Shown piece by piece: positions 3,324 to 20,555 of a stretch of 64,000 bases of DNA. Position numbers and translations under genes: made by a program. The notes under the pieces were generated by a model, which saw only the letters and a program-made list of their open reading frames with translations, was not told where the DNA came from and did no database searches. Each line of letters opens with the position of its first letter. Position 1 is the stretch's first letter. Source of the stretch: Hymenobacter rubripertinctus (GTDB lineage Bacteria; Bacteroidota; Bacteroidia; Cytophagales; Hymenobacteraceae); NCBI RefSeq assembly GCF_003583925.1, contig NZ_QYCN01000004.1:230752-294751 (forward strand). The letters run 5' to 3'.

Positions 3324-3456
3324 TGGGAAAGCGTAATTCACGTAATTCATACGAGTGAGTTAAGGGGAAAAAAATCGGAAGGTGAGACAGTACCGATTAC
3401 CCCAATACACCGGGCCGGAGCAGATGCCCCAGCCCGGTGCGGTGAGCTGGCGGCCG

Positions 3457-4719
3457 TTACTTAACAACCAGCTTTATAGTGAAAACCGTTCCTCCGTTCT
3501 GGCCGCTGCCGGCCCGCAGGGTCATTTTCTTGTCGTCGATGGTCAGGATGCGGTACACCTGTTCGGTGGGCGAGGCGTCGGTGGCGGCGATGAACGCGCC
3601 GGGCCGCGTGAGCCGGAACTGGGCCAGCCCCGCGCCCGAAGCCGGCCCGAACACGAACGGTGTGGTACCGGTGAGGCCGGGCTGACAGCTATAATTCTTT
3701 TTATCAGCGAAGAATGTTTCGCCTTTGGCGTCGTAACTCATCACGTTGGCCGTCGAGAACGTGTACTCGTCGTCCGACTGGCAGGCGGGCAGCTCGCCGG
3801 CCTTCACGCCGCCGAAGTACTCCGTCGGGTTGAGTTCGGTGCCCACCACGATGGGGGCGTCCACGGTGTTATCGAGCTTCCAGGTGCGCGACGAATTGCC
3901 GGTGAGCAGCTGCTTGAAGGGGGCCGTGGCATCGTAGGGGGCCAGCGTCAGCACGGTGCGGGTGCCGTCGGGGTTGGTGCCGCGCAGCCGCAGCCGGGTA
4001 TCGGTGGCCTCCAGCACATCGTAGGTTTTGTTGGCCACCGAGTCGGCCGTGCCGATGAAGTTGCCCTTGCCCCTGAGCACAATTTGCGGGTTGCCGCTGG
4101 GGTTGGGCCGGAACACGAAGTTGCCCCCATTGGCGATGGAGTTCACGCAGGCCCCGTTCTTAAACGACTGGCCGCCGCTGGTGTAGCCCAGCGTGTAGTT
4201 GCTGCTGAAGGCGAACTGGTCGTCGAGCTGGCAGGGGTCGAGGGTGGTGGAGCTGGACAGGACCGTGCCGCTGGCCGACTCGCGCACAATAGAGCCCGGG
4301 GCGTTCAGAAACGACCAGACCCGGGTGCCACTGCCGGCGCAGTCCACAATTTTGCTGAACACGGCATTGGAGCAGCCATCGGGCACGGTTACGGTTTGCT
4401 TGGCCGAAATGCCGGTGCCGCCCCGCCCGGCCGTGAGCAGCTCTACCTGGTAGGAGCCGCCCCGGGTGTAGGTGTGCTGCACCGGACTGCCGGTGCCCAG
4501 GCTGTTGTCGCCGAAGTTCCACTCGTACACGAACCCGTCCTGGCTGGTGCTGGTGAAGGTAACCACCGTCGGGAATTCGGTGGTATTGACCTGGAAGGTG
4601 AAGGTAGAGGTTGGAATGGGGCCTTCCAGCTGGCTCTCGTCGCCGTCTTTCTTGCAGGAGGTCAGCAGGAGCGGGCCGGCCAACAGGCCCAGCAGGGCCA
4701 TACGTGCTATAGTTTTCAT
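3457..4719 (-). CDS. PKD-domain surface lipoprotein, probable glycan-binding protein of the SusCD operon
   Basis: This 420-residue lipoprotein (lipobox LTSC at residues 19-22) has a PKD/Ig-like domain at about 40-115, marked by YEWNFGDNS and the closing HTYTRGGSYQVEL. Two related beta-rich repeats follow, each opening with a Trp motif (TRVWSFLNAP; SRTWKLDNT) and carrying a Cys followed by DDQF or DDEY. It sits directly after SusD, where Bacteroidota loci usually encode surface glycan-binding proteins. That role is inferred from position and domains; there is no catalytic motif. Its ATG lies 11 bases after a C11 run (minus strand) that disturbs the end of susD. Confidence 0.8.
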   Translation of the reverse strand: MKTIARMALLGLLAGPLLLTSCKKDGDESQLEGPIPTSTFTFQVNTTEFPTVVTFTSTSQDGFVYEWNFGDNSLGTGSPVQHTYTRGGSYQVELLTAGRGGTGISAKQTVTVPDGCSNAVFSKIVDCAGSGTRVWSFLNAPGSIVRESASGTVLSSSTTLDPCQLDDQFAFSSNYTLGYTSGGQSFKNGACVNSIANGGNFVFRPNPSGNPQIVLRGKGNFIGTADSVANKTYDVLEATDTRLRLRGTNPDGTRTVLTLAPYDATAPFKQLLTGNSSRTWKLDNTVDAPIVVGTELNPTEYFGGVKAGELPACQSDDEYTFSTANVMSYDAKGETFFADKKNYSCQPGLTGTTPFVFGPASGAGLAQFRLTRPGAFIAATDASPTEQVYRILTIDDKKMTLRAGSGQNGGTVFTIKLVVK

Positions 4720-6238
4720 GGGAATTTTTAGGGGGGGGGGGTGGATGCGGTAACCCGGGCGGCCGGGGCTGCACCAGGCCCGAATTCACATCGATTTCAG
4801 ACTGCGGAATCGGCAGCACGATGTTGAACGGCTTCACGCCCTTGCGGATATAGTGCGGGCTGGTGAGCAGCTCGCCCGTGCGCTTGGAGTCGAACCACCG
4901 GTCGTTTTCGAAGGCCAGCTCGTACTTCCGCTCCCGCCACACGGCCCGCTTGAAGTCGTCGGGGCTCATGGCTTTCAGGTCGTGGACGCCGGGCGTGTTG
5001 ATGTCGGTTCCGAAGGCGCGGCGGCGCACTTTGTTGATGGCCTCCAGGCCCGAGGGAGTGGGGCCTTCGGCTTCGGCCTGCATCAGGTACACTTCCGCCA
5101 GGCGCATCACCGGAATGTTGAGCTCCGAATCCCAGACGTTGGTATTGACCTTGCCGATAAACCACTTTTTGCAGCCGTAGCCGTTGGGCGAACCGGGCAG
5201 CGAAGCGGGTTGGGTGCGGCCGTCGGGGTATTTGTCGCCGGGCTTCCAGATGGTCACGTCGCGGCGCAGGTCGCCGGCTTCGTAGCCGGCCACAAAGTCG
5301 TCCTCGGGAATATTGAAGCCATAGCCCCCCTGGGGCGTGATGCCCTGGCCGCGCGGCCCGAAGAACTCGTTGCCCACGAAGCCCAACCCGTTAAAGGTGT
5401 ACTCGTTGCGGCCCGCGATGTAGCCAACCTCAAACAGCGCTTCCTTGCCGTACTCGTTGGCTACCTTGAAGTTGTCGCCGTAGTTGGCCCACAGGCTTTT
5501 GCCGCTGCCGGCAATAACCTCCTTGGCGCGCTGGGCGGCCCCGCTCATGTTGCCCTGGGTGAGGTACACTTTGGCCAGCAGGCCCGTAGCGGCCCACTTG
5601 GTGGCCCGGCCCAGGTCGTCGCCGCTGTAGGAGGGCGGCAGGTTGCCGATGGCCTCCGTCAGGTCCTTCACAATCTGGGCGTACACGTCGGCGGCGGGGC
5701 TGCGCTTCACGTTCACTTCGGCCAGGGTGGTGGGGGGCACGGTGAGCAGGGGCACGTCGCCGAAGGCCCGTACCAGGTCGAAGTAGTACTTGGCCCGCAG
5801 GAACTGGGCTTCCCCGATGCTGCGCTTCTGAATGGCGGGGTCGATGCTCATGGCCGGCACCTTCTGGAGCACAATGTTGGCCCGCCCGATGCCCACGTAG
5901 CAGCCGCCCCACAGGTTGGAAGTGAGCGGGTTGGTAGCCGGGATGTTGAAGAAATCGAGCTGCTGCTGCTCGATGCCGTCGCCGCCGCCGCCGCCGCCGG
6001 TGGTCGAGATATCGGAACCGATGTCGCCGATACCCCACAAGGAGTAGTTGTACTGGCCCTGCTTGCCCAGCTCGCTGTAGATGGCGGTGGTAGCCTGAAT
6101 GGCGTCGGTGGCGGTTTTGTAGAAGTTCGCGTCGGTTACCTGGTCGGTAGGAGCCTCCGACAGGAAGTCGCGGCCACAACCCGTGAGCAGGCCCAGGGTC
6201 AGGAGCGTGGCGGTGGTATATTTTGTGATGGGATTCAT
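4160..6238 (-). CDS. susD: SusD/RagB family nutrient-binding lipoprotein, 3' end extended by a C-tract frame problem
   Basis: The authentic SusD part spans 6238 to about 4770. It has lipobox LTGC, the N-terminal FLSEAPTDQVTD, TPR-like helices (EAQFLRAKYYFDLVRAFGDVP) and the C-terminal family signature RERKYELAFENDRWFDSKRTGE ... LPIPQSEIDVNSGLVQ. SusD normally ends a few residues after that motif. Here the frame continues through an 11-C run (plus-strand G at 4731-4741) and about 190 codons of nonsense in a different frame over the PKD gene, giving 692 residues in total. With 12 C the protein would stop at once at TAA. The protein captures oligosaccharide for SusC at the outer membrane. The function is secure; the C-terminus as written is not. 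Confidence 0.85.
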   Translation of the reverse strand: MNPITKYTTATLLTLGLLTGCGRDFLSEAPTDQVTDANFYKTATDAIQATTAIYSELGKQGQYNYSLWGIGDIGSDISTTGGGGGGDGIEQQQLDFFNIPATNPLTSNLWGGCYVGIGRANIVLQKVPAMSIDPAIQKRSIGEAQFLRAKYYFDLVRAFGDVPLLTVPPTTLAEVNVKRSPAADVYAQIVKDLTEAIGNLPPSYSGDDLGRATKWAATGLLAKVYLTQGNMSGAAQRAKEVIAGSGKSLWANYGDNFKVANEYGKEALFEVGYIAGRNEYTFNGLGFVGNEFFGPRGQGITPQGGYGFNIPEDDFVAGYEAGDLRRDVTIWKPGDKYPDGRTQPASLPGSPNGYGCKKWFIGKVNTNVWDSELNIPVMRLAEVYLMQAEAEGPTPSGLEAINKVRRRAFGTDINTPGVHDLKAMSPDDFKRAVWRERKYELAFENDRWFDSKRTGELLTSPHYIRKGVKPFNIVLPIPQSEIDVNSGLVQPRPPGLPHPPPPPKNSHENYSTYGPAGPVGRPAPADLLQERRRREPAGRPHSNLYLHLPGQYHRIPDGGYLHQHQPGRVRVRVELRRQQPGHRQSGAAHLHPGRLLPGRAAHGRAGRHRHFGQANRNRARWLLQCRVQQNCGLRRQWHPGLVVSERPGLYCARVGQRHGPVQLHHPRPLPARRPVRLQQQLHAGLHQRRPVV
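4731..4741. repeat. Mononucleotide run G11 (C11 on the coding strand) at the susD/PKD junction
   Basis: Eleven consecutive G on the plus strand sit at the very end of susD, 11 bases before the PKD lipoprotein ATG. Length 12 puts a stop codon immediately after the run; 11 reads into an unrelated frame; 10 would fuse susD in frame to the PKD gene. It is either a slippage-prone contingency tract or a sequencing-length error. Confidence 0.85.
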
Positions 6239-6281: not shown

Positions 6282-9200
6282 CTAGAAGCCGATGTTGACG
6301 CCGGCCAGGAACACGCGCGGCTGCGGGTACACGCCCAGATCGACGCCGCTGGCCCCCACCTCCGGGTCGAAACCCGAGTACTTGGTGAAGGTGGCCAGGT
6401 TCTGGGCCGTTACGTAGAGGCGCAGCTGCTTGGCGGCCACCCGGTCGCGGACCATCTGGGGCAGGTTGTAGCCCAGAGTGAGCGTTTTGATGCGCAGGTA
6501 AGAGCCGTCTTCGAGGAAGTAGCTGCTCACGCGCAGGTTCTGGTTGGGGTCGTTGGCCACGGCGCGGGGCACCTCGTTGCTGGTGCCCGGGCCGGTCCAG
6601 CGGTCCAGCACCCGGGCGCTGCCGCTGCTGTTGCCATACAGCGGGCTTTCCAGGATGAAGCGGTTCTGGTTGTAGATCTGGTTGCCCTGGGAGCCTTGCA
6701 GAAACACGTTCAGGTCGAAGCCCATCCAGGTGAATGTGTTGTTCAGGCCGTAGGTGAAATCGGGGTTCGGATTGCCGATAAAGGTGCGGTCCGAGGCATT
6801 GATGATGCCGTCGCCGTTGAGGTCCTTGAAGCGGATGTCGCCGGGGGCCGTGTTCTTGGTGGGGTCGTTGCCCCGGTTCTGGGAAGCGTGGGCATTCACC
6901 TCCTCCTGGGTCTGGAAGATGCCGTCGGCCACGTAGCCGTAGAACGAGCCGAAGGGCTGGCCCTTGTCGTAGCGCACAATCACGCCGCTCAGCGCGCTCA
7001 GCCCGTTATAGGGCTGGCCCACCCCGAGGGCATCAAGCTGGGTTTTGTAGGCCGACATGTTCAGGGTCGTCGTCCAGCTCAGGCCCCGGCCCGTGCCCTC
7101 CACGTTGCGCGAAGTCAGCGAGAAGTCGATGCCCCGGTTGTAGGCGGAGGCCGCGTTGCGGTTCACGCTCTCGTAGGTGCCCGACACCAGCGACACCGGC
7201 ACCGGCGCAATCAGGTTGGGAGAGTTCCGGTTGTAGAGGTCGATGGTGGCCTCGAAGCGGTTTTCGAGCAGCCCGATATCGAAGCCCAGGTTGGTTTGGT
7301 TGTTGTTTTCCCAGCGCAGGTCGGGGTTGGCCAGGCGGGTAGGAGCCGCCCCCGTGAGGATGGTGCCGCTGGGGCCGAAGGGATAGTTGATCTGCGAGTT
7401 GATGGCGTAGAGGTAGGCGAAGCGGCCGGCGTTGTTGGGGTTGCCCACTTTGCCGTAGCCCGCGCGCACCTTCAGGTTGCTGATGACGCGGTTGCCCTTC
7501 AAAAAGTCCTCCTCCGAAATGCGCCAGCCGGCCGACACGCCGGGGAAGAAGCCGAACTGGTTGCCGGGCTGGAAGTTGCTGGAGCCATCGTAGCGGGCAA
7601 TGGCCTGAAACAGGTATTTACCGCCAAACTCGTAGTTGAGGCGGGCAAAATAGCTGGCCAGGTGGGCCGCCGGGTTGATGCTACCCGCGTTGGCCAGCCG
7701 GGTATTAATGGGTCCCGAGTTGATAACCTGCAAGTCGTTGCGCAGGTAGCCGCTGCGGTAGGCCTCCACGTTGCTGAAATTGAACTCCTGGGCCGACTGG
7801 CCCAGCAGCACCGTTACCTGGTGCTTGTCGGCAAACAGGTGGTCGTAGGTGGCCGTGTTCTCAATCAGGTAGCTCGGCGCGTACGAGGCCGTGGCAGTGG
7901 CCCCGGCCAGGTTGTAGCGGGTCGAATACGTTTCCTGGCCGCCTCCGGGCAAATCCACCCGCAGCTCCGGCACCGTGGGCCGGAAGGAGTTGAAGTTGTC
8001 GAAGATGAAATCGGCCCCCACGTTGGTGCGGAAGCGCAGGCCCTTGACCGGCTCCAACTCGGCGAACAGGGTCGTCAGGGCCCGGTTGCGGGTGAAACCC
8101 TGGTTGTTGAGCGTCGCCGCCACGATGGGGTTCTCCTCGATGAAGTTGTCCTGCTGGCCCCGGGGCTCGTAGTAGTAGCCATCGGGGCGGTACACGGGCA
8201 GCGTGGCCGGAATGCGCAGCGTCTGCTGCACGGTGCCGTACTCGCCGCTGTTGGAGGTAATCTGCCGGTCGTTGAGGTGGGTGAGCGAGATGCTGTTGCC
8301 GAACTTGAGGATGTTGTTCACCTTCACGTCGCCGTTGGCGCGCAGCGTAAACCGCTCGAAGTTGGAACCCACGATGGTGCCGTCCTGCTGGAAGTAGCTG
8401 CCCGAAATAGCAAAGCGGGCCTTTTCGCTGCCCCCGGTGGCCGAAAGGGCGTAGTTCTGGATGGCGGCCCGGCGGAACACCTCGTCCTGCCAGTCGGTGC
8501 CTTCGCCCAGGGCCTGGGGGTCGCGCAACTTGTCGACCACAATGGGCAGGCCGGCGGCAATGCGGCTTTCGTTGTTGATGACGGCGTATTCCTGGGCATT
8601 GAGCAGCGGCAGCTTGCGCCACACCTGCTGCACGCCCCGGTACACATCCAGGTTGATGGTCGAAACGCCCGCCTTGCCGCGTTTGGTGGTGATGATAACC
8701 ACGCCGTTGGCGGCCCGCACCCCGTAAATAGCGGTGGCCGAAGCGTCCTTCAGAATGTCAATCGATTCAATATCGTTGGGGCTGATGGCGTTCAGCTGAT
8801 TTTCCTGAACGTTGCCGTTGGCATCCTTCGATTCGGGCAGGGGAAAGCCGTCCACGACGTACAGCGGACTGTTGTTGCCCGCCGACGTGATGCCCCGCAC
8901 CCGCACCGACGTGCCGGCCGCACCACCCGGCGCGCCCCCGTTGGAGGTTACCGTGACGCCCGCCGCCCGACCCTGTAGGGCCTGGGTGGCATCGGCCACC
9001 GGCTGGGAGGCAATTTCCTTCGCCGACACCGACGACACGGCCCCCGTTACGCTGCCGCGCTCCTGGGTACCGTAGCCCACGACCACCACCTCGCTCAGGG
9101 CCCGCAGATCCTCGGCCATCGTCACAACGATGCCGGCCGAAGCGCCCGTAATAGCCACCTCCTTGCGCACGAAGCCCACGTAGCTGAAAATCAGCGTGGA

Positions 9201-9470
9201 ATTCTCGGGCACGTTCAGGGCGAAAGTGCCGTCGGAGTTGGTGGTGGCCCCGATGGTGGTGCCCTTCACGATGACGGTTACGCCCGGCAGTGGGTCGCCA
9301 TTTTCCTGGGTTACGCGGCCCGCTACGGGTACGTCGGCCAGGCGGGTGGCACGGGTTGCCGGGGCCGCCGCCGGGGCGGGCGCAGCTCCCAAAGCGGGTA
9401 GGGTTGGCAAACCGCAGGCCGCCAGCCACAAAGTCCGGCGCAACGCCTGAGTGTAGAGGTGTTGGTTCAT
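6282..9470 (-). CDS. susC: SusC/RagA family TonB-dependent outer-membrane transporter
   Basis: This 1062-residue outer-membrane receptor imports oligosaccharides released from glucan, powered by TonB-ExbBD, with SusD as its lid. The chosen ATG (9470) gives a normal signal peptide (MNQHLYTQALRRTLWLAACG); the longer frame to 9674 runs through non-coding upstream DNA. After an Ala-rich stretch comes a carboxypeptidase-regulatory-like beta-sandwich (about 45-130), the SusC signature LSEVVVVGYGTQERGSVTGAV, a plug domain (about 150-260, with DASATAIYGVRAANGVVIITTK) and a 22-strand-type barrel. It ends in the aromatic-terminated VFLAGVNIGF. It is the first gene of an operon with susD, a PKD lipoprotein and two GH16 genes. 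The promoter is at 9760-9791. Confidence 0.94.
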   Translation of the reverse strand: MNQHLYTQALRRTLWLAACGLPTLPALGAAPAPAAAPATRATRLADVPVAGRVTQENGDPLPGVTVIVKGTTIGATTNSDGTFALNVPENSTLIFSYVGFVRKEVAITGASAGIVVTMAEDLRALSEVVVVGYGTQERGSVTGAVSSVSAKEIASQPVADATQALQGRAAGVTVTSNGGAPGGAAGTSVRVRGITSAGNNSPLYVVDGFPLPESKDANGNVQENQLNAISPNDIESIDILKDASATAIYGVRAANGVVIITTKRGKAGVSTINLDVYRGVQQVWRKLPLLNAQEYAVINNESRIAAGLPIVVDKLRDPQALGEGTDWQDEVFRRAAIQNYALSATGGSEKARFAISGSYFQQDGTIVGSNFERFTLRANGDVKVNNILKFGNSISLTHLNDRQITSNSGEYGTVQQTLRIPATLPVYRPDGYYYEPRGQQDNFIEENPIVAATLNNQGFTRNRALTTLFAELEPVKGLRFRTNVGADFIFDNFNSFRPTVPELRVDLPGGGQETYSTRYNLAGATATASYAPSYLIENTATYDHLFADKHQVTVLLGQSAQEFNFSNVEAYRSGYLRNDLQVINSGPINTRLANAGSINPAAHLASYFARLNYEFGGKYLFQAIARYDGSSNFQPGNQFGFFPGVSAGWRISEEDFLKGNRVISNLKVRAGYGKVGNPNNAGRFAYLYAINSQINYPFGPSGTILTGAAPTRLANPDLRWENNNQTNLGFDIGLLENRFEATIDLYNRNSPNLIAPVPVSLVSGTYESVNRNAASAYNRGIDFSLTSRNVEGTGRGLSWTTTLNMSAYKTQLDALGVGQPYNGLSALSGVIVRYDKGQPFGSFYGYVADGIFQTQEEVNAHASQNRGNDPTKNTAPGDIRFKDLNGDGIINASDRTFIGNPNPDFTYGLNNTFTWMGFDLNVFLQGSQGNQIYNQNRFILESPLYGNSSGSARVLDRWTGPGTSNEVPRAVANDPNQNLRVSSYFLEDGSYLRIKTLTLGYNLPQMVRDRVAAKQLRLYVTAQNLATFTKYSGFDPEVGASGVDLGVYPQPRVFLAGVNIGF

Positions 9471-9759
9471 TGATGTGTGGGAATTGAGGGAAGGAAAAAC
9501 AGCTGAAAATGCCGGTGGGCAAAACGGGGCCAGACCGTGGGAAAATCTGGCTACCGGAAAAAATGAAAGGTCAAGCGCGCCATCATTAAGGGAGCAGGAG
9601 GAGGCTGGCGGCACGAGCAGAACTCCGACGAGCCTGACGGGAAGAGGGCCGCCCCCGGTGCGGGCACGCAGCAAGGCGGGAGGGCGGGCGAGGGTCCGGT
9701 TGCGCTGACTGGGAAGTGGTTCAGCCGGAACAGGTTGCCGTTCGGTATCGGCGGATAGT

Positions 9760-9791
9760 CAAATATACCCTCCCTTGTTCGGGAAAAGCAA
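9760..9791 (-). promoter_or_regulatory. susC operon promoter (TTG - 21 bp - TATATTTG)
   Basis: Read on the minus strand, TTG at 9789-9791 is followed after 21 bases by TATATTTG at 9760-9767, a perfect TAnnTTTG box. The same -7 octamer with the same 21-base spacer occurs before the large GH16 gene at 18652-18684. The mRNA leader would be about 280 bases. Confidence 0.75.
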
Positions 9792-9850: not shown

Positions 9851-9875
9851 TTATACACTTACCGCACACGCGAAA
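9851..9875 (-). promoter_or_regulatory. Shared 25-bp operator-like element upstream of the susC operon
   Basis: TTATACACTTA, then CCG, then CACACGCGAAA (plus-strand reading). The same element with GGA in the middle is at 18743-18767. In both places its first base lies exactly 91 bp from the first base of the plus-strand CAAATATA (-7 box). On the minus strand it contains two GTGT units 11 bp apart, about one helical turn, as expected for a binding site contacted on one face. It is the likely site for a common activator of the locus; the protein is unproven. Confidence 0.75.
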
Positions 9876-10262
9876 GAGCCCTTGAAAGCCCCTGATGCTT
9901 TGCTTGTAGGGTTCCGCCAGAGAGGTAACAACACGTAAAAAACAATCAAAAAAATAGCTGTACCAGATACTTTTTTTACCCGGATTACCGGCCAAGTGTC
10001 CACTTTCCTATCCAAATAAGCCTATCGGCCAGAACCCAGTGCCGGCTTGGCCCCGGCCGCCTACTTGGCCGGCAGCTGCGGATAGCCGCTTGAGCCCGGG
10101 CCGCAACGCCCCGGCCAGTAGCCCCGCTACTTAGTGCCGGAACGGTTGGTACCGTCGGTTGGGCCGGCCGGCCGCTACGGATGCAGCGCGCGGGCGGCCG
10201 GCGTATCAGCTAACCGCTTCGGGGTCAGGCGCCTGTCGGTGTCCTGAGCGGGTTGACGGGGG
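9876..10262. other. Gene-free stretch between the sensor gene and the susC operon
   Basis: I see no convincing ORF here. An A-rich box (AACAATCAAAAAAA, 9941-9954) is shared with 18822-18835, where it is AACAATCCAAAAAAA, and lies about 90 bp beyond the operator-like element. The remainder, from about 10020, is very GC-rich without a clear terminator for the sensor gene. Confidence 0.5.
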
Positions 10263-12266
10263 TTACGCCCGGTCAGCAGCTTCCTCTGCTACCACTGCCT
10301 CCTCCGTATCCGGGGCGTTGGCATCGAGCAGCACATGGGTCCAGCCTTCGTTCTCGTCAAAGTCGGGGGCCTGGCGGCGGCGGCGCATGGCTTCCAGCAC
10401 TTTCTGGCTGAAGCTCCAGCAGGTACCTTGGCGCAGGTCCAGCACGCGCGAGAGCTCCTGCGACGAGTAGTTGCCCTGGTGGGTATAAATCAGGAATACA
10501 GCGTAAAAAGCCTTGATAATGGAGAATTTACATTTCTGCAAGAGCGTATAGGCCGTGGCCGATTCCACGTAGCGGCACTTGGTGCAGCGCCGGGAGTGGG
10601 GCTCCCGGCCGTCGCAGAACTTCTCGTGGCCGCATTTGCGGCATTGGTAACCGTCGGCCCACTTCAGGTTGGCCAGGTAGGCCAGGCAGGCATCCTTGTC
10701 GGGGTATATCTGGCTGAATTCCCCAAAATTGACCTCCTTCGACAGCACCCGCGCCGTTTTCACTTCCTGTAAATCGTGTTGCAGGTCCTGGTTGAGTTTT
10801 TCGATGGCGGCCGACTGCAGGGCCAGCAGACCATTGGCCTGGAGCAGCTCGCGGTTCTGGCCGGCAATAGTTTCGCTCTGGCGGCTGAGTTCCGCCGTAC
10901 GCTCGGCCACCAGCCCTTCCAGCTCAGTATTCAGCTGATCCTTCAGAATCTGGTTGTGATGCAACTGCTCCACCAGCTGGTTCTGCACCGCGTGCTTCTT
11001 GCGCAGCTGCTTCACCAGTTTGCCCTGCGTGCGGATGGTAGCCTCCTTGATGGCCTTGATTTTCTCCCCCAGCGCGTAGGACAGCACCACTACTTCGACC
11101 ACGAAGGCCACGTTCATGCTGTAGACCGTGGCCGTATTGGTAAACGTATCGATGCCCAGGCGGCGCAGAATCAGGAATCCTACGCTGAGAGCCACCAAAG
11201 CGTGGGCCAGCAGAAAGTAGCGGGCCGTGCGCTGGCCCCGCTGCCACACGCGGTAGGCGGCATAGTAGATGAGGCCATAGGGCAGCAGATACAGCCAGAA
11301 TCCCCAGCCTGAACGCACCCACACGGTATCCAGCACCAGCCCGGCCAAGCTCACTACTACCACGGCCCGCACCCAGCGGTCGAGGCGGGGCAGGCGCTGG
11401 GCAATGTCGAGGAACTGGCGGGCGTAGTAGCTGAAGGTGAGCAGCAGCAGAATGGGGGCGCCCGCAATGATGAGCTCATTCAGGGCCGGATGCGCGGGCC
11501 ACAGGTACTGAAACCCCAGCCCGTCTTCCGACAGAAATACAAGGCTGCAACTGAGCACGTATAGCACGTAGCGCAGGTAGGTTTGCTCCCCGATGAAGAG
11601 GTAGAGACACAGGTTGTACACCACCATAATCAGCAGAATACCATAAAAGCCGCCCAGCAGGCCGTATTCCGTCTGAAAATGTACGGCTAGGGGCTGCTCG
11701 GTGCGCAGGCGGCTCAGGAAAGTGGTTTTAGAGCTCGATACCAGCCGCAGGTAGTAGGTCTGGGTCTGCTCGGGGTGCAGGGGAAGGCGGAAGAGGAAGT
11801 TTTTGTAGGGAAACTTGCGGGTGCTCAGGGGCAGGCCGGCTCCGGTAATGACGGGGGGCGCACCATCGGGCGGAAAGAACTCTACGTTGTTGAGGTGGGA
11901 GTCGAATAATTCCAGATACCAGTGCTGTTGGAGCGCCCCCCGGGCCTGCACCCGCAGGCGCAGCCAGTAGGCCGCGCCGGGGTGGTCCATGGTAGTGGTG
12001 GGCAGGGTGCTGGCCCGCTGAAACTGGCTGGCCCACCGGGGCTCCCGGATCTGGGCCAGCGTGAGGGTGCCCGAGGGGTCCTCCAGGACGCTGTAGTAGG
12101 TGGGCTCAACGAATACTTCTTCCAGGGCGGCAGTTACGCGCAGCGTATCGGCGGGCTGGGCCCGGACTGAGGGGGAACCGCACAGAATCAGCAGCAGGCT
12201 GCTTAGCGTCAGGAGCGAAAACCAGGTAGCCCGACGCGGAGGGAGGAGGGAGGTTACGCGCTTCAT
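10263..12266 (-). CDS. 7TMR-DISM membrane sensor fused to an IS1595-type transposase zinc-ribbon DNA-binding domain
   Basis: This 667-residue protein starts at the ATG at 12266, where a signal peptide ends near residue 36; the frame continues upstream through unrelated DNA. Residues about 40-190 form a 7TMR-DISMED2-like periplasmic carbohydrate-binding-type domain (YWLRLRV ... WYLELF ... FPYKNFLFRLPL). Residues about 200-400 hold seven membrane helices of the 7TMR-DISM type. About 400-505 is a Gln/Leu/Glu-rich coiled coil. Residues 515-630 match the N-terminal part of IS1595-type transposases: zinc ribbon C542-x2-C545 ... C561-x2-C564, then YSSQELSRVLDL and QKVLEAM, corresponding to their helical segment. 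No DDE catalytic domain follows. I infer a membrane-tethered one-component transcription regulator for the surrounding glucan genes; DNA binding is not shown. It follows the GH5 gene by 173 bp on the same strand. Confidence 0.8.
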   Translation of the reverse strand: MKRVTSLLPPRRATWFSLLTLSSLLLILCGSPSVRAQPADTLRVTAALEEVFVEPTYYSVLEDPSGTLTLAQIREPRWASQFQRASTLPTTTMDHPGAAYWLRLRVQARGALQQHWYLELFDSHLNNVEFFPPDGAPPVITGAGLPLSTRKFPYKNFLFRLPLHPEQTQTYYLRLVSSSKTTFLSRLRTEQPLAVHFQTEYGLLGGFYGILLIMVVYNLCLYLFIGEQTYLRYVLYVLSCSLVFLSEDGLGFQYLWPAHPALNELIIAGAPILLLLTFSYYARQFLDIAQRLPRLDRWVRAVVVVSLAGLVLDTVWVRSGWGFWLYLLPYGLIYYAAYRVWQRGQRTARYFLLAHALVALSVGFLILRRLGIDTFTNTATVYSMNVAFVVEVVVLSYALGEKIKAIKEATIRTQGKLVKQLRKKHAVQNQLVEQLHHNQILKDQLNTELEGLVAERTAELSRQSETIAGQNRELLQANGLLALQSAAIEKLNQDLQHDLQEVKTARVLSKEVNFGEFSQIYPDKDACLAYLANLKWADGYQCRKCGHEKFCDGREPHSRRCTKCRYVESATAYTLLQKCKFSIIKAFYAVFLIYTHQGNYSSQELSRVLDLRQGTCWSFSQKVLEAMRRRRQAPDFDENEGWTHVLLDANAPDTEEAVVAEEAADRA

Positions 12267-12439: not shown

Positions 12440-14323
12440 TCAGGGCCTGCCTACCTCGCCGGCGGACGGTAAGGCAATGAACCGCAGCCAACCCAGCTGC
12501 TGCACGGGCTGCTCTATCCGCAGACGCAGCGTGTGGGTGCCAGCGGGCAGGGCGGGCAGCGTCAGCGAAACAGTGGTCCAGGCGGAGCCGGCGGGCACGG
12601 GCACCGAGCCCAGGGATTGGGCACCAAGCGCCAGGGACAGGTGGCCGGGGGCGGGGCCGGGTTGCAGGTGCAGTTCGGCCAAGTAAGGGCCGGCGGTGGT
12701 TACGTTCACGGTGTAGTGGAGCCATTCGCCGGCCGCCAGGTGCTGCACGACGAAGCCGCCGGGCAGGTCGGGGGCCGGCGCAATGTCCACGCCATCGTTG
12801 CGGTAGGCCTCGCCCTGATTGGTGGGCGTTGGGTCGCGGTAGTCGGTGCGGGCGGCGTAGGTATCGTGGTACGACACCCCGTCGCGGCCCAGGTCGTAGT
12901 CGGGAGCGGCAATGGTGCCGGGCAACGTGAGGGTCCGGAAGGGGGCGTGGTAGTCGGCGGGCTTGGTGAGGGCCGTTACCACGTCCGGGTTCACCTGGCA
13001 GTTGCCAAAGCGGGCGTTGCGCAGCAGCGCGGCGCGCCCCTCGGGCGTGAGCAGACTGCCGTAGGGCGCAATGCGCAACAGGCCGGCCCCGGAGGCTACC
13101 CGCTTGATGTTCCAGTGGCACCAGCCGATGCTGGCCGCGTGGAGGCCCGCCACGGCGGTAGCAAACCAGTCGTTGGAATTTTCGCCCGTTTCGCCCACCC
13201 ACACCGGCACCTGCCAGCGCTGCCGGAAGGCCGCCAGATTGGCAATCAGGTTGAGCTGGTTGGGGTTGGGGTCGAGCAGGGCCGGGTCGTTGGAGCACCA
13301 GTAGCGGTGGCCATTGTACACGAGGTTGGTTTTGTCGCGGGCCGTGAGCTTGTCGGGGGTCAGGTTGGTGTACTCGTTGCCGTAGCCATTGCCTTCCAGC
13401 AGCAGCAGGTGCGGGTCCTGCTGGTCGCGCACGGCATCAATGAGGCGGGAATAGAGCCCATTCAGCTCCCGGTTGTCGGCCGAGAGCCCGTGCGCCGGAT
13501 TCAGGTTGTGGGGCTCGTTGATAAAGTCGTAGAGGGCAATGGTGGGCTCCCGGCGGTAGCGGAGGGCCAGCTGCTCCCAGAGGCGCACCGTCAGGTCTTG
13601 GTAAATCAGGCGGCCATGGGCGTCGCGGCGTTTCCACAGGTCCAGGGGTCGGAAGTTGTCGTTGATGTTGGCATCGGTGCCCTGGCCGCCGGGGGCCGCG
13701 TGCAAGTCCAGTACCACGTACATCTGGTTGGCCGCGCACCACTTCACCACATCATCGATGTAGCGGAAGCCGTCCAGCTTTCGGGACTGGTTGAAGAGTT
13801 GGCCGGCATCGTACCACTGGCTGAGTTGCCGCACGTAGGCATCCAGCCGGGCCTCATTCTGCGGGTCGCGGATGACTTCAGTGCGGGCGTGGCGCTGCTC
13901 AGGCGTCAGAAACAGGTCGTAGTGCAGGGGCAGCCGCACGCAGTTGAACCCCTGGCGGGCCAGAAAGTCGATGTCGGCCTTCGTGATGAACTGCTGGCGG
14001 TACTGGCGGTAGAACGCTTCCATCTCCGCTTCGGGCATGGTCCGCAACATGCCCTGCCTGATGCGCCACTGGCTGTTGAGCGTGTCGGTGCCCAGCATAT
14101 AGCTTTCCTGGAGCAGCCAGCCGCCCACATTGTAGCCGCGCAGCACCACCTCGCGGCCGGTGGCGTCCACTATGCGCGGGCCCTCGGCGTGGAGCGGACT
14201 CATCTTCTGGGCCTGGGTGGGGCCGGCGGCCATCAGCAGCAGGCCGGCCAGGGCCAGCCCGAGGGTGCCAGTGCGTGCGGATGCCTTGCGAAGGCCTGAA
14301 ACCGGCCGGATGCGGCTCATCAT
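12440..14323 (-). CDS. Glycoside hydrolase family 5 (EXG1/BglC-like) with C-terminal CBM6-like domain
   Basis: This secreted 627-residue enzyme was given the start at 14323 (or 14320), which yields a signal peptide ending near GPTQAQ; an in-frame ATG at 14386 would add an odd extra hydrophobic stretch. The catalytic domain (about 45-420) opens with VLRGYNVGGWLL, typical of EXG1-type exo-beta-1,3-glucanases. It carries the GH5 acid/base Glu in YDFINEPHN (near 270) and the nucleophile Glu in VWVGETGEN (near 378). A C-terminal beta-sandwich (about 490-620: YRNDGVDIAPAPD, EWLHYTVNV, LRFIAL) resembles CBM6. It probably trims glucan oligosaccharides. It is second in the operon after the large GH16 gene; substrate is inferred from neighbours and the EXG1-like motif. 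Confidence 0.87.
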   Translation of the reverse strand: MMSRIRPVSGLRKASARTGTLGLALAGLLLMAAGPTQAQKMSPLHAEGPRIVDATGREVVLRGYNVGGWLLQESYMLGTDTLNSQWRIRQGMLRTMPEAEMEAFYRQYRQQFITKADIDFLARQGFNCVRLPLHYDLFLTPEQRHARTEVIRDPQNEARLDAYVRQLSQWYDAGQLFNQSRKLDGFRYIDDVVKWCAANQMYVVLDLHAAPGGQGTDANINDNFRPLDLWKRRDAHGRLIYQDLTVRLWEQLALRYRREPTIALYDFINEPHNLNPAHGLSADNRELNGLYSRLIDAVRDQQDPHLLLLEGNGYGNEYTNLTPDKLTARDKTNLVYNGHRYWCSNDPALLDPNPNQLNLIANLAAFRQRWQVPVWVGETGENSNDWFATAVAGLHAASIGWCHWNIKRVASGAGLLRIAPYGSLLTPEGRAALLRNARFGNCQVNPDVVTALTKPADYHAPFRTLTLPGTIAAPDYDLGRDGVSYHDTYAARTDYRDPTPTNQGEAYRNDGVDIAPAPDLPGGFVVQHLAAGEWLHYTVNVTTAGPYLAELHLQPGPAPGHLSLALGAQSLGSVPVPAGSAWTTVSLTLPALPAGTHTLRLRIEQPVQQLGWLRFIALPSAGEVGRP

Positions 14324-14358
14324 ATGCAGTAGAATTAAGAGAAAGAGAAAAGCGGGAA

Positions 14359-14396
14359 AGGAAAAAAAGGGACGGAGAGGCTCCATCCCTTTTCCG
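14359..14396 (-). terminator. Weak hairpin between the two upstream glucanase genes
   Basis: Plus-strand GGAAAAAAAGGGA pairs imperfectly with TCCCTTTTCC around a 13-base loop. It may attenuate read-through from the large GH16 gene into the GH5 gene or be an mRNA-stability hairpin. The gap of 167 bases holds no ORF. Confidence 0.35.
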
Positions 14397-14490: not shown

Positions 14491-17400
14491 TTACTCCTTG
14501 GTGAACCGCTGGACCGTAGCCGGACCCTGGGTCCCGCGCAGTGTCAGGAAGTAGAGGCCCGGGCGCAGGGCCTGCACGTCTACTTCGGTGGCGGGGCGGC
14601 CGGTGGTGCTGGGCTGGGCGTGCACTACCCGGCCCAGGGCGTCGGTGATGGTGAGCGTGGCCGGGCCGTTGGTGGGTACCGTGAGCCAGGTGCGGGCGGG
14701 GTTGGGGTAGAGCCGGGCCTCGGGCGCAACGGCCGCGGTGGTGGCCAGGGCCGTCCGGCTGGCGGTGCAGGTGGTGCCCGCTGTGTAGCTGTGCGGCGTG
14801 GCGCTGGAGTTGCGCTCGGGGCCATTGGTGCCCACCCGGTACGTGAAGTAGAACGACAGCGCCGCGCCGCCGGCCTGGGCCTGGGCGAAGGTGAAGTTGC
14901 TGCCCGCCGCCGTCATGGTATACCCGGCATATCCGCCCGAACCTACCTTCACATAAAGGAGGGCCAGGTTGCTGCCGGCAATGGGCGTAAGCGGAATGAA
15001 CTTCCAGCTCACGGTGCCGTTGGTGGTCGATACCTCGTAGGAATAGTCGCCGTTGGCCAGGGTGCCGGTGCAGGCCGTGGGGCCGGTTCCGCCGCCGCCG
15101 CCGCTGGCCGCCGTGCCGTACACTTCCAGCTCGTAGAGCGAGTAGCCGTAGGGCGTGCCGCGCAGGGTGCCCAGGATGCGCACGTAGCGCCCGGTGCCGC
15201 TCAGGCCGGTGTGGTCGTTCACGAGGGCCGTGTTGCCGGCTACCGTTTTGAGGGCGGTCCAGGCCAGGTGGTCGTTGGATATTTCCACGCGGTAGTTCTT
15301 GCCGTAAGCGCCTTCCCAGGTCAGCTTCACGCGGTTCACGCTGTAGCTCGCGCCCAGGTCCACGTACAGCCACTCGGAGTCAGAAAAGGCGCTGCTCCAG
15401 CGGGTGGTGCCGTTGCCATCCACGGCGGCCGAGCCGGCCGTGCCCGCATTTTCAACCGACGAAACCGTGACCGGCCTGTTCAGGGCCAGATTGGTGGCGG
15501 CGGGGGGCGGCGTGGCCGAAATCGTCACGCTCACGGGCGCCGAGGTGGTAACGGCCCCGGCGTTGTCGGTGGCCCGGGCGGTAAGGCTGTAAGTGCCCGC
15601 TGCTACCCCGGTCCAGCTGTAGGCGTAGGGGCTGCTGGTGTCGGTATTGAGCAAGGTGGTGCCGTTGTAGAACTCCACTTTGCTGATGGTGCCATCCGCA
15701 TCGGCGGCGCTGGCCGTGAGGCTCAGCGTGGCCGGGGCCGTGAAACTGGCGTTGTTGGCCGGCGAGGTCAGGCTGACGGTGGGGGCCACGTTGGCCGGGG
15801 CCGAGCTGCCGGTGAGGCTGCGCAGGTTATCGAGGTAGAACACGGCTCCGCTGGTCGAGTTCGGCCCGAAGAGCAGCACCACGTTGTCCACGTCGGCATC
15901 GGCCGTGCCGGGGTCGGGCGCGCTGGTGTAGCTGAAAGTGAGCGTATGCCAGGCGTTGGTCTGCTTCACCACGGCCTGGTACACGCTGTGCCGGCCCGTG
16001 GGGTAGTTGCCGGAGTTGGAAACCGCGCTGCTTTCCAGCTGCCACGATACAATGGTGCCCACCGGGGCCGAGGTGTACACGTCCAGGGCAAACCGCTTCT
16101 GGCCGGCCGCGTAGGCGCTGCCGTCCTTCACCTGGGTGGTGGTCAGCATGAGGGCATCGTACTGGGCGGTGGCGTTGCGGGTGTAGCGGGCCACGTTGGC
16201 GGAGGTGTTAATGCCCGAGGCCGAAGGGTTGGCGCTGGGGGCCACATAGGTGCCATCGGCCTTGCGGAAGGGCAGGTTCCGGATGTTGTCGTAGTTCTCG
16301 AAGGTGGTGCCGGCCACGTAGGTCGGGGTGGCTTTCCTGGCTACCCGGATGTTGTCGAGGTAGTAGGTGTCGCCGGAGGCCACGCCGCTGTTGAACAGGA
16401 AGGCCAGCTGGTCGATGGCCACGTTGGCCGTGCCGCCGTCGGGGGCGTTATTGAAGGCGAAGGTGAGGGTTTCCCACTGGTTCTGCCGGGTGGTGGCCGC
16501 CAGGTAAGTGCTGTTGCGGCCGGCCGGGAACGAGCCCTGGGGCGAGGCCAGCGCCTTGTTTTGCAGCGTCAGGTTGATGGGCGTGCCCACCGGAGCCGTT
16601 GAGTACACATCGACCTGGAACTGGTAGGTCTGGTTCTTGAACAGGGCCGCGTCCTCCACCACGGTGCCGGCGGGGGCCGCGTCAAAAAACAGCACGTCGT
16701 ACTGCTCGGAGGCGTTGCGCACGTACCGGGCCACGGTATTGGAGGTGTTGGGGGCCGTTTTGCTGGGGTTGGCCAGCACCGAGTAGGCCCCGTTGGTGCC
16801 GGCCGCGTCGAAGCTGAGGCGGGCCGTGCCGTCGTAGTTGAGCAGCACGTCGGTGGCCACCACGGGGGCTTCGGGCTGCTTCTTGATGAGCAGGTTATCG
16901 AAGTAGAAGGTAGCCCCGGAGCTGGTGGCCGGCTGCATCAGGAAGGCCACGTTGTTGATGGAGTAGATGCTGGTGCCCGCGTCGAGGCCCTTCTCAAACT
17001 CGAATTCCAGGGTTTCCCAAGCGTTTTGGCGGGTGGTGTAGGCCCGGTAGGCGCTGTGCCGGCCGTAGGGGAAGTTAATGGCCGTGGTCACGGTGCTGTT
17101 CTCAAACTGCATCGTGATTTTGCTGCCCGCCGGGGCCGTCGAATACACGTCCACAAACACCCGCCGGCGGCCCTGCACGAAGTCGTTGGCGTTGCTGATG
17201 CCCAGGTTGCGCACGTTCAGCACGTCGTACTGCTCGGAGGGGTTGCGCACGTATTTGCCCACCTTGGCGGAGGTATTGAGGACGGCCGAGGGGTTAGCCA
17301 CGGCCTGGGTGAGCGTGCCGGTGGTGGCTCCGTAGGTCAGCACCCGGTTGCTCTCAAAATCCTCGTACACCCGGTCGAGTTGCAGGGCAGGCGTTACGCT

Positions 17401-18495
17401 CAGGGCCTTGGTGTAGGTGGCCGTCGGGCAGCCGCTCACGGCCACGCTGGCCGTTATGTTGCCGCTCACCGCCCCGCTGCCAAAGTTCACCAGCACGGCG
17501 TTGGTACCCTGGCCACTCACGATGGTAGCCCCCGCGGGCACCGACCACGCGTAGGTGCCGCCGGTAATGGCATCAAGGCGGAAGGTTTTATTCTGGTCGC
17601 CCTGGTGGACTTCATTTGCACCCGCAACAGTGTAGTTGTAGGTGCCCTGGTACACCCGCACGTAATCCACTTGGGTGGTGGTGGGAAAATCGGAGGAAGT
17701 GGGGTTCTGGTAGCCAGTGAAGCCGGTGCCAGGCCCGCCCACGGCCGAGTTCAGGATGAGGTAGAAGTTACCGTCGTTGAAGGGCCAGGAGCCGCCGGTC
17801 GTGGTTTTGGGCGAGACCGTGTGGAAGAGCGTGTTGTCCACGAACCACTTGATCTGGTCGGGGCTCCACTCCACGGCGTACACGTGGAAATCCTGGGATA
17901 AATCAACAGTGGAGCCGTATTCGCGGCCCGTGAAGTGCCAGCCGCCGGCGTCGTAGTGAATGGTGCCGGCCGTGGATTTGGGGTTTTTGTGCTTGGCCTC
18001 CATGATGTCAATCTCGCCCGTGTAGGGCCAGTTGCCGGGGTCGGCCAGCATCCAGAACGCGGGCCACACGCCCTGGGCCGAGGGCAGCTTCATGCGGGCC
18101 TCAATGCGGCCGTACCGGAACGTTTGCAGCGCGCCGGTAGCGGGTATTTTCGACTGGAGCTTGGCGGAGGTGTAGTTGTAGGTGCGCCCGCCTTCCACGG
18201 AGTTCTCAAAGCGCGTGGTAATGTTGAGGTAGCCGCCCGCCACGGTGGCGTTGCCGGGGCGGTACACCTGGAGCTCGGCGTTGCCGAAGTTACAGTTGCC
18301 CACGTTGCAGCCGTCGCCGTTGTAGACCTGCCACTTATCGAAGTTGCCGGGGGTGTTGAACTCATCGGCCCAGACGAGCTGGTTGCACTGGGCCTGCGCC
18401 GGCGTGGGTTGAAGGAGCCAGCCTAAACCGGCCGCCAGGGCCAGCCGGGTCCAGCGCCCGAGCCGATGGCCCGGGATTGGTACAGTTGTTTTCAT
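14491..18495 (-). CDS. Large secreted GH16 beta-glucanase with three repeated modules, CBM32-like and CBM56-like domains and T9SS tail
   Basis: This 1334-residue protein starts at 18495 with a signal peptide ending near QAQ (residue 36). The GH16 domain spans about 38-285, with catalytic E161, D163 and E166 in GEIDIMEAKH. A PKD-like segment (about 300-370) follows. Three homologous modules of about 165 residues (near 375-538, 547-717 and 732-892) are each marked by YVRNPSEQYDVL-type and VDVYSTAPAG-type motifs and end in YFDNL. Next come an Ig-like domain (905-993, VEFYNGTTLLNTD), a discoidin/CBM32-like domain (1001-1127), a CBM56-like beta-1,3-glucan-binding domain (1138-1243, FTYRVGTNGPE) and a type IX secretion sorting domain (1260-1334, LYPNPARTWLTV). 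It likely attacks insoluble beta-1,3-glucan outside the cell. It heads the upstream operon. Confidence 0.9.
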   Translation of the reverse strand: MKTTVPIPGHRLGRWTRLALAAGLGWLLQPTPAQAQCNQLVWADEFNTPGNFDKWQVYNGDGCNVGNCNFGNAELQVYRPGNATVAGGYLNITTRFENSVEGGRTYNYTSAKLQSKIPATGALQTFRYGRIEARMKLPSAQGVWPAFWMLADPGNWPYTGEIDIMEAKHKNPKSTAGTIHYDAGGWHFTGREYGSTVDLSQDFHVYAVEWSPDQIKWFVDNTLFHTVSPKTTTGGSWPFNDGNFYLILNSAVGGPGTGFTGYQNPTSSDFPTTTQVDYVRVYQGTYNYTVAGANEVHQGDQNKTFRLDAITGGTYAWSVPAGATIVSGQGTNAVLVNFGSGAVSGNITASVAVSGCPTATYTKALSVTPALQLDRVYEDFESNRVLTYGATTGTLTQAVANPSAVLNTSAKVGKYVRNPSEQYDVLNVRNLGISNANDFVQGRRRVFVDVYSTAPAGSKITMQFENSTVTTAINFPYGRHSAYRAYTTRQNAWETLEFEFEKGLDAGTSIYSINNVAFLMQPATSSGATFYFDNLLIKKQPEAPVVATDVLLNYDGTARLSFDAAGTNGAYSVLANPSKTAPNTSNTVARYVRNASEQYDVLFFDAAPAGTVVEDAALFKNQTYQFQVDVYSTAPVGTPINLTLQNKALASPQGSFPAGRNSTYLAATTRQNQWETLTFAFNNAPDGGTANVAIDQLAFLFNSGVASGDTYYLDNIRVARKATPTYVAGTTFENYDNIRNLPFRKADGTYVAPSANPSASGINTSANVARYTRNATAQYDALMLTTTQVKDGSAYAAGQKRFALDVYTSAPVGTIVSWQLESSAVSNSGNYPTGRHSVYQAVVKQTNAWHTLTFSYTSAPDPGTADADVDNVVLLFGPNSTSGAVFYLDNLRSLTGSSAPANVAPTVSLTSPANNASFTAPATLSLTASAADADGTISKVEFYNGTTLLNTDTSSPYAYSWTGVAAGTYSLTARATDNAGAVTTSAPVSVTISATPPPAATNLALNRPVTVSSVENAGTAGSAAVDGNGTTRWSSAFSDSEWLYVDLGASYSVNRVKLTWEGAYGKNYRVEISNDHLAWTALKTVAGNTALVNDHTGLSGTGRYVRILGTLRGTPYGYSLYELEVYGTAASGGGGGTGPTACTGTLANGDYSYEVSTTNGTVSWKFIPLTPIAGSNLALLYVKVGSGGYAGYTMTAAGSNFTFAQAQAGGAALSFYFTYRVGTNGPERNSSATPHSYTAGTTCTASRTALATTAAVAPEARLYPNPARTWLTVPTNGPATLTITDALGRVVHAQPSTTGRPATEVDVQALRPGLYFLTLRGTQGPATVQRFTKE

Positions 18496-18651: not shown

Positions 18652-18684
18652 CAAATATATCAGCCTTTGGGGGGTAAAATCAAA
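18652..18684 (-). promoter_or_regulatory. Promoter of the large GH16 operon (TTTG - 21 bp - TATATTTG)
   Basis: On the minus strand TTTG (18681-18684) is followed after exactly 21 bases by TATATTTG (18652-18659). This is the Bacteroidota promoter form, identical in -7 box and spacer length to the susC promoter. The start codon is 157 bases downstream of the -7 box. Confidence 0.78.
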
Positions 18685-18742: not shown

Positions 18743-18767
18743 TTATACACTTAGGACACACGCGAAA
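18743..18767 (-). promoter_or_regulatory. Shared 25-bp operator-like element upstream of the large GH16 operon
   Basis: TTATACACTTA, GGA, CACACGCGAAA (plus reading) matches 9851-9875 at 22 of 25 positions, the differences being confined to the central triplet. Its offset from the -7 box is 91 bp, identical to the susC copy. An A-rich box follows at 18822-18835. The region 18768-18988 otherwise holds no gene and must also contain the crtD promoter, for which I see no clear -7 box. Confidence 0.75.
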
Positions 18768-18988
18768 AACGTCCGTGCCGGCCCGGGTTGCCCTGCGTCC
18801 TCCGCCCGGCCGCGGCTAAGAAACAATCCAAAAAAAGGCCGGCCGGCGCATTTATTTTCCGTCAGCCACCGGGTTTCCGGGCGGGGTAAACATTTACCGG
18901 GTGCCGGTTGTGTAAAACCGCGCCACTGCCCGTTCTTCGCGGTGGCGGACCGGGTTGGCCGGTTGCCTTCGTCTTTGTTCCTTTTCGC

Positions 18989-20491: not shown

Positions 20492-20537
20492 ACGGTCCTT
20501 CTGAGCGGAGAAGGATGACCGTTCATGTTTCATTTTT
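20483..20537 (+). terminator. Hairpin with U-tract overlapping the crtD stop codon
   Basis: GAAACATGAACGGTC (20483-20497) pairs perfectly with GACCGTTCATGTTTC (20517-20531), with an inner CTTCT/AGAAG stem. T-rich sequence follows directly (ATTTTTACTTTTT). The TGA of crtD lies inside the left arm. It can reduce transcription of cruF relative to crtD. Confidence 0.65.
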
Positions 20538-20555
20538 ACTTTTTAATTCCCCTCT

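Follow-up and report, generated by a model that had tools for sequence, protein, structure and literature searches.

Regulators determine the polysaccharide diet of Bacteroidota. The receptors of the 7TMR-DISM type, which were reportedly the subject of a paper in 2003, usually end in a histidine kinase, a GGDEF domain or a LytTR domain, a list that is possibly not defining. CadC and ToxR are membrane-tethered one-component regulators, in which a sensor and a DNA-binding domain share one transmembrane chain. A 7TMR-DISM protein with a GGDEF output is a described example, as far as the accessible part of its source goes (PMC5342196). For hemicellulase genes, the available part of a 2024 review gives HTCS, ECF sigma/anti-sigma pairs and catabolite repression as the canonical modes of regulation, and its text nowhere uses the terms 7TM, zinc ribbon or transposase (PMC10766802). 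No publication on a 7TMR-DISM receptor joined to the zinc ribbon and helix–turn–helix (HTH) of an IS1595 transposase was found in the open-licence literature.

Here, we describe a gene for such a fusion in a 64 kb stretch of DNA from Hymenobacter rubripertinctus (the window). We observe the architecture of the protein, the loss of the DDE domain, an invariant zinc site, an association with PULs and a conserved element at both promoters of the locus. The position of the fusion beside polysaccharide-degradation genes, together with the conserved promoter element nearby, suggests an undescribed mode of gene control. We hold it probable, at roughly three chances in four, that the protein regulates transcription of its own beta-glucan utilization locus as a membrane-tethered one-component regulator and works by the full mechanism proposed below, in which binding, ligand and activation are inferred.

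The regulator gene, with its DISMED2, 7TM, coiled-coil and IS1595-type zinc-ribbon/HTH parts, lies at 10263–12266 on the minus strand and encodes 667 residues (Pfam, NCBIfam). Its start codon is the ATG at 12266 and its stop codon lies at 10265–10263; the reading frame is open up to 13298 at the longest, and for most of the 12 Hymenobacter relatives the alignment begins at the ATG at 12266. The periplasmic 7TMR-DISMED2 sensor (11718–12098, minus; residues 57–183; Pfam E 2.6e-25, 89.4 bits against a cut-off of 22) is followed by the 7TMR-DISM_7TM region (11064–11666, minus; residues 201–401; Pfam E 4.5e-41, 141.5 bits against 29). Among solved folds, the best match to the sensor is the periplasmic domain of RetS (3jyb; Foldseek E 1.7e-7). 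A coiled-coil-like linker comes next (10743–11063, minus; residues 402–508), where long helices are predicted at 378–460 and 468–508. The whole-protein model in which they appear, comprising a beta-rich sensor, seven helices, helices over 378–508, the zinc ribbon and C-terminal helices, is weak (pLDDT 64, pTM 0.43).

The output domain begins with an IS1595-type zinc ribbon (10569–10700, minus; residues 523–566), matched by Zn_ribbon_IS1595 (PF12760) at E 1.6e-6 with 28.4 bits against a cut-off of 25.4. The pre-catalytic HTH that follows (10356–10532, minus; residues 579–637) is assigned from the output-domain model and from a partial match to the NCBIfam model of IS1595 transposases, NF033547, which covers profile positions 2–61 of 215 at E 5.5e-7. 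This match scores 29.7 bits, under the model's cut-off of 75, and the region matched is the HTH immediately ahead of the catalytic core, the first quarter of the profile. As a positive control we used a true IS1595 transposase (locus L017), which matches NF033547 in full and has both PF12762 and PF12760; regulator residues 508–634 are 46% identical to it. The preliminary description had proposed a 7TMR-DISM receptor fused to an IS1595-type zinc ribbon and helical segment, and these Pfam, NCBIfam and alignment results confirm it, with a significant C-terminal similarity to IS1595 proteins. The four cysteines that it placed at C542, C545, C561 and C564 are where it placed them. Its claim that the DDE domain is missing also held: neither PF12762 nor a full NF033547 match occurs among the regulator's Pfam and NCBIfam hits at E up to 1. 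The same Pfam and NCBIfam hits, at E up to 1, hold no kinase, GGDEF or LytTR output, and by Pfam the regulator is without a histidine kinase, a receiver and an AraC domain. Modelled alone, the output domain is better predicted (pLDDT 82.8, pTM 0.76). It has no Foldseek match at E 0.001 or better; VIA-align returns homeodomain/HTH structures with a best Z of 5.8, a range that possibly means merely a common arrangement, and PDB sequence searches gave no match below E 0.1.

We compared 150 different fusions from Hymenobacter, many other Cytophagales and a few other Bacteroidia. None of the 150 lacks any of the four zinc cysteines, and no more than 47 residues remain beyond residue 640; since close relatives are included, these counts are not independent. 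Among the Hymenobacter orthologs the output domain is the best-conserved region, with 94–98% identity in 11 of 12 and 78% in the remaining one (L013), and the 7TM region is 74–93% identical. An IS1595 insertion or fusion could also have left the C-terminal domain behind as a mere passive remnant, in a protein that signals by some other route; the clear derivation of the domain from a transposase fits with this. The conservation of just this part of the protein, its invariant ligands and the presence of the same module on another type of sensor (see below) speak against a relic, which we regard as very improbable. A chance or broken match was ruled out by the orthologs in 12 named species, the invariant cysteines and the conserved gene order.

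A tree was built from 93 fusion domains (ten from Hymenobacteraceae, the remainder from outside the family) and 16 transposases, and one branch splits the two sets with support 100/99. Because the tree is unrooted, a single origin is consistent with it but not demonstrated; judged from these sequences, the regulator family probably goes back to a single ancient domestication of a transposase. The fixed gene order in 12 of 12 named Hymenobacter loci argues against mobility of the regulator gene and, together with the zinc site, the missing DDE domain and the separate branch, it supports the word 'domesticated' used in the preliminary description. The genome that holds the window has a single copy of the gene, and its only other PF12760 match is partial and below the cut-off. 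Two scans of viral contigs for further transposases found none. In another genome, G720, about twenty copies of an ORF of 154–190 residues match the zinc/HTH part only, many of them at contig ends, and are probably a multi-copy IS1595-type element.

The spread of the fusion was followed with a profile built from an alignment of 14 relatives, with at most eight candidates scored per genome in Hymenobacteraceae and at most three in the searches of the order, class and phylum. Full-span fusions occur in 64 of 150 Hymenobacteraceae genomes, 58 of them Hymenobacter; at least eight Hymenobacter genomes have no match. At E 1e-60 or better, 141 of 390 Cytophagales genomes match, and all the Cytophagales rows among the matches listed (to about 372 bits) extend into the output domain. 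The class Bacteroidia gave matches at that threshold in 18 of 395 genomes, 16 full-span, seven of these outside Cytophagales; for the phylum Bacteroidota, 395 genomes yielded 11 full-span matches, none outside Bacteroidia. Some genomes hold several fusions, with ten full-span matches in G639, five in G672 and three in G604. The carriers known by name are Hymenobacter species and, with the gene on plasmids, Persicobacter psychrovividus, Flammeovirga kamogawensis and Aureibacter tunicatorum. Among the plasmid proteins, PF12760 scores over its cut-off in pPP7 and Flammeovirga and below it in Aureibacter, with no match listed for pPP2. PF12760 likewise does not reach the distant members L016 and L177 and stays below its cut-off in L178; their membership rests on our own profile. 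The gene tables of the four named plasmid records speak only of a '7TM diverse intracellular signaling domain-containing protein', an annotation that leaves the inferred regulatory role hidden. Three local arrangements were seen in passing. At L113 (8938–12945) the fusion gene stands head-to-head with the gene of a 656-residue 7TMR-DISM histidine kinase, and L114 has the same layout by gene lengths; in one Hymenobacter subgroup the gene of a DUF5686 protein directly precedes the fusion (L030, 6344–8917).

The PUL around the regulator is encoded on the minus strand throughout. It starts with a secreted multidomain GH16 enzyme (14491–18495, ATG near 18495) and a GH5 enzyme with CBM6 (12440–14386; Pfam), and continues after the regulator with a SusC-type TonB-dependent receptor (6282–9473, ATG near 9473; Pfam), a SusD protein (conserved part 4769–6238; PF14322 and PF07980 over cut-off), a PKD-domain protein that is probably a lipoprotein (3457–4719; Pfam) and two further GH16 enzymes (2466–3350 and 1541–2545; Pfam). 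From the presence of GH16 and GH5 we infer a beta-glucan locus, and these neighbours bear out the earlier placement of the regulator inside a glucan-type PUL. The further statement that no other regulator is present stands only for the 14 window ORFs scanned with Pfam, the regulator included, which hold no second one; small ORFs and most ORFs beyond about 30 kb were outside the scan. The SusD ORF as a whole (4160–6238, minus) overruns the end of its relatives by about 200 residues and overlaps the next gene, possibly through a frameshift or sequence error near its end. Two genes on the plus strand, at 18908–21245 of the window, are oriented divergently to the glucan locus; one is amine-oxidase/desaturase-like and the other Caroten_synth.

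All 12 of the named Hymenobacter loci show the order regulator–SusC–SusD–PKD–GH16, and 11 of them have GH5 directly upstream. After eight of the 150 fusions were left out for too short a flank, a susC-type gene lies within 1.5 kb downstream on the same strand in 78 of 142, within about 6.5 kb in another 32 and nowhere within that reach in the last 32. By group, a susC-type gene within about 6.5 kb accompanies 64 of 65 fusions in Hymenobacteraceae and 46 of 77 outside the family. Detection relied on iterative profiles seeded with the SusC of the window, which also catch some other outer-membrane proteins. About 30 chosen neighbours at the SusC-less loci, not every one, were surveyed: GH18, GH9, GH43, GH10, GH81 and polysaccharide deacetylase are among them, and some of these fusions adjoin genes without a clear role in glycan use (PriA, aconitase, a GH3-type acyl-amido synthetase, an S8 peptidase, outer-membrane efflux, MFS, MatE, sulphite/nitrite reductase-like and DUF2339 proteins). 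On the named plasmids, the fusion is adjoined by SusD, GH3, GH16, cellulase-family, GH2, GH43, GH97 and BglX genes. With these susC, glycoside hydrolase and plasmid neighbours, the association of the architecture with glycan loci is found across many genera. For comparison, 26 non-fusion 7TMR-DISM ORFs were taken from 22 genomes, and no SusD hit (E 1e-8) came within 10 kb of any of them. This control, compared by eye, used the Pfam SusD model, a different detector from that of the fusion survey, and SusD was present in 11 of the 22 genomes, which hold 15 of the 26 ORFs. At least one non-fusion 7TMR-DISM gene (G695:C36) is found among the matches listed at 8.8 kb from SusD, at a locus that also bears a fusion.

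In the window, a conserved element, GTGNNSTAAGYGTAYA, followed 100 bp on by a Bacteroidota-type promoter, occurs in exactly two copies, one before susC and one before the first PUL gene. Three blocks, K1, K2 and the promoter, were found conserved between the regulator and susC in an alignment of 13 species, at nearly fixed spacing. The candidate operator K2 (GTGTGCGGTAAGTGTATA; 9852–9869, minus) lies upstream of susC, with the candidate operator K1 (TTGTTTTTTACGTG; 9932–9945, minus) upstream of it; both are predictions without binding data. The susC promoter itself (9760–9791, minus) reads TTG-N21-TATATTTG, which we take to be the Bacteroidota promoter consensus. Before the first PUL gene, a second K2 copy, also without binding data (GTGTGTCCTAAGTGTATA; 18744–18761, minus), precedes a second TTG-N21-TATATTTG promoter (18652–18683, minus) at the same spacing as at susC; the K1-like block there is degenerate and at a different distance. 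Two K2 matches in 64 kb compare with 0.02 expected; the motif was defined on the first, before the second was detected. The composite of K2 and promoter is present twice in the window, and its reversed control gives 0.

The composite was sought in 65 Hymenobacteraceae loci, each about 20 kb long. It has 58 hits in the gap that follows the regulator and 16 upstream of the regulator, without exception on the regulator's strand, and none elsewhere (reversed control 0). Six of the 65 loci do not have it, and the paralog L043 has neither the composite nor SusC. In its exact form it occurs 44 times against 0 in 20 shuffles. Genome-wide, the K2 pattern has 71 sites in 37 of 71 Hymenobacter genomes, and the reversed pattern has eight. 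Exact K2 sites are present in 22 and missing from 14 of the 36 genomes with a known fusion; one genome listed without a fusion (G110) has a site. The 22 hold 42 sites, 27 of them within 8 kb of a fusion, and 11 of these 27 lie on the upstream side, which was not used to derive the motif (0.04 expected). The source genome has three K2 sites, two in the glucan locus; the third lies outside it (G000:C136:141779-141794).

Outside Hymenobacteraceae, de novo search of 35 fusion–susC intergenic regions returned TGTTtTT.AAGCGt.A with a score of 118, against 50–53 in three shuffles. This motif is close to K1 and has the AAGYG core in common with K2; leave-one-out p was at most 0.05 for 23 of 31 regions. 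For untrained fusions outside the family, the best hit of the 16 bp motif in the locus lay near the gene in 8 of 45 against 4.4 expected, which is not significant; in the group scored as Hymenobacteraceae (of which L016 is not a member) the figures were 20 of 66 against 5.4. Upstream regions of susC/TonB-receptor genes that do not adjoin a fusion score below 10 in 43 of 46 cases (13 of 14 outside the family), compared with 6 of 31 of the fusion-adjacent ones; a general feature of susC promoters is thereby disfavoured. The exceptions among the controls are L028 (14.7, the same locus with a GH3 gene between), L042 (12.2) and L052 (11.3). The comparison is partly confounded, as the adjacent set served to train the motif and GC-rich Hymenobacteraceae loci supply 32 of the 46 controls (median GC 0.61 versus 0.40). 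Besides genuine SusC, the controls include other proteins that the profile picked up, among them a DUF5686 protein (L030), and many controls sit in the same PUL as a fusion. The 14 fusion genomes without an exact K2 and this confounding by GC slightly lower our confidence in the regulator reading.

These data also bear on whether the protein regulates the PUL while another factor, such as a sigma factor or a catabolite regulator, binds K1 and K2, the zinc ribbon and HTH making some other contact with DNA or protein. The fixed promoter layout, with 98–101 bp from K2 to TAnnTTTG, could come from a general activator; there is no direct tie between the protein and the DNA, and the motif weakens in distant fusions. 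Such a factor fits poorly with the rarity of K2 genome-wide and with the mostly motif-free receptor genes away from fusions, partly confounded as that count is, and we consider it unlikely without setting it aside.

Our preferred reading, direct control by the fusion protein, can be set out as a mechanism. DISMED2 would sense a glucan oligosaccharide in the periplasm, and a cytoplasmic dimer would receive the change through the seven helices and the coiled coil. Formerly, the zinc ribbon and HTH would have recognized transposon ends; now they may bind K2 and K1 at susC, which precede the −7 box of its promoter by about 100 and 180 bp, as well as the K2 before the first GH16 gene, and both promoters would be activated; the binding and the activation are inferred from conservation. 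The GH16 promoter lies before the regulator gene and the susC promoter after it, so positive feedback is possible. Whether the DNA-binding part would act while attached to the membrane or after proteolytic release is undecided, as neither has been shown. Sequence is unable to separate an activator from a repressor that leaves K2 upon glycan sensing. Sites well upstream and outside the promoter core, as K2 and K1 are here, are more usual for activators, and a repressor seems to us improbable, slightly more so than binding by another factor. The membrane-tethered one-component architecture, a transmembrane sensor and a DNA-binding domain in one chain, is predicted from the sequence and the model. 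When first proposed for this gene, it was offered as a regulator; the conserved promoter element, found only around the gene in the loci read, now supports that role, which remains an inference.

The terminal repeats of IS1595 elements were compared with the operators. The two nearest IS1595 loci whose repeats were read first (L017 and L083) share G-N7-CACTT, and the complement of CACTT, AAGTG, matches the operator core. In L179, a third near relative, CTAAGTG stands next to just one of the two ends and is oriented the opposite way; the other elements among 17 IS1595 loci have different repeats or none that could be found, L192 having CGCTT. A five-letter core recurs by chance fairly easily, so the resemblance is only a lead. 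The output module itself is not confined to 7TMR-DISM receptors. By coordinates, four ORFs of 1001–1068 residues in two genomes (G621:C73, C362 and C33, and G695:C23) carry a Y_Y_Y domain upstream of, and in frame with, a coiled-coil/zinc/HTH output of the regulator type; one of the two genomes has 7% contamination. Y_Y_Y domains are typical of HTCS sensors. A joint reading is not excluded and remains tentative, with the balance of our judgement somewhat against it: the DNA-binding half of an IS1595 transposase, domesticated once in the distant past, would have founded a class of glycan-locus regulators in Bacteroidota, the module would have spread to two or more unrelated types of membrane sensor (7TMR-DISM and Y_Y_Y), and the operators would keep the AAGTG core of the terminal repeats, so that recognition of transposon ends became recognition of promoters.

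If the regulator reading is true, PULs have a further kind of regulator, a receptor equipped with a DNA-binding domain captured from a transposase. The family could aid the assignment of substrates to PULs, and it allows the conversion of transposon-end recognition into gene regulation to be tested, on a binding site that is already predicted and can be assayed. Compared with known 7TMR-DISM receptors (PF07695/PF07696), the regulator matches both Pfam models of the sensor and membrane parts well over cut-off but has a transposase zinc ribbon and HTH in place of the usual outputs. With the IS1595-family (ISXO2-like) transposases it has the zinc ribbon and pre-catalytic HTH in common; it differs in having no DDE domain, in its conserved gene order and in its branch apart from the 16 transposases. 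Like the HTCS of Bacteroidota PULs, it is a membrane sensor encoded within the PUL and presumed to control susCD and glycoside hydrolase genes, and its type of output stands behind Y_Y_Y in the four ORFs above, whereas the regulator itself lacks the histidine kinase, receiver and AraC domains. As in CadC and ToxR, sensor and DNA-binding domain are placed in a single transmembrane chain; those proteins have one helix, whereas the regulator has seven and a C-terminal DNA-binding domain of transposase origin.
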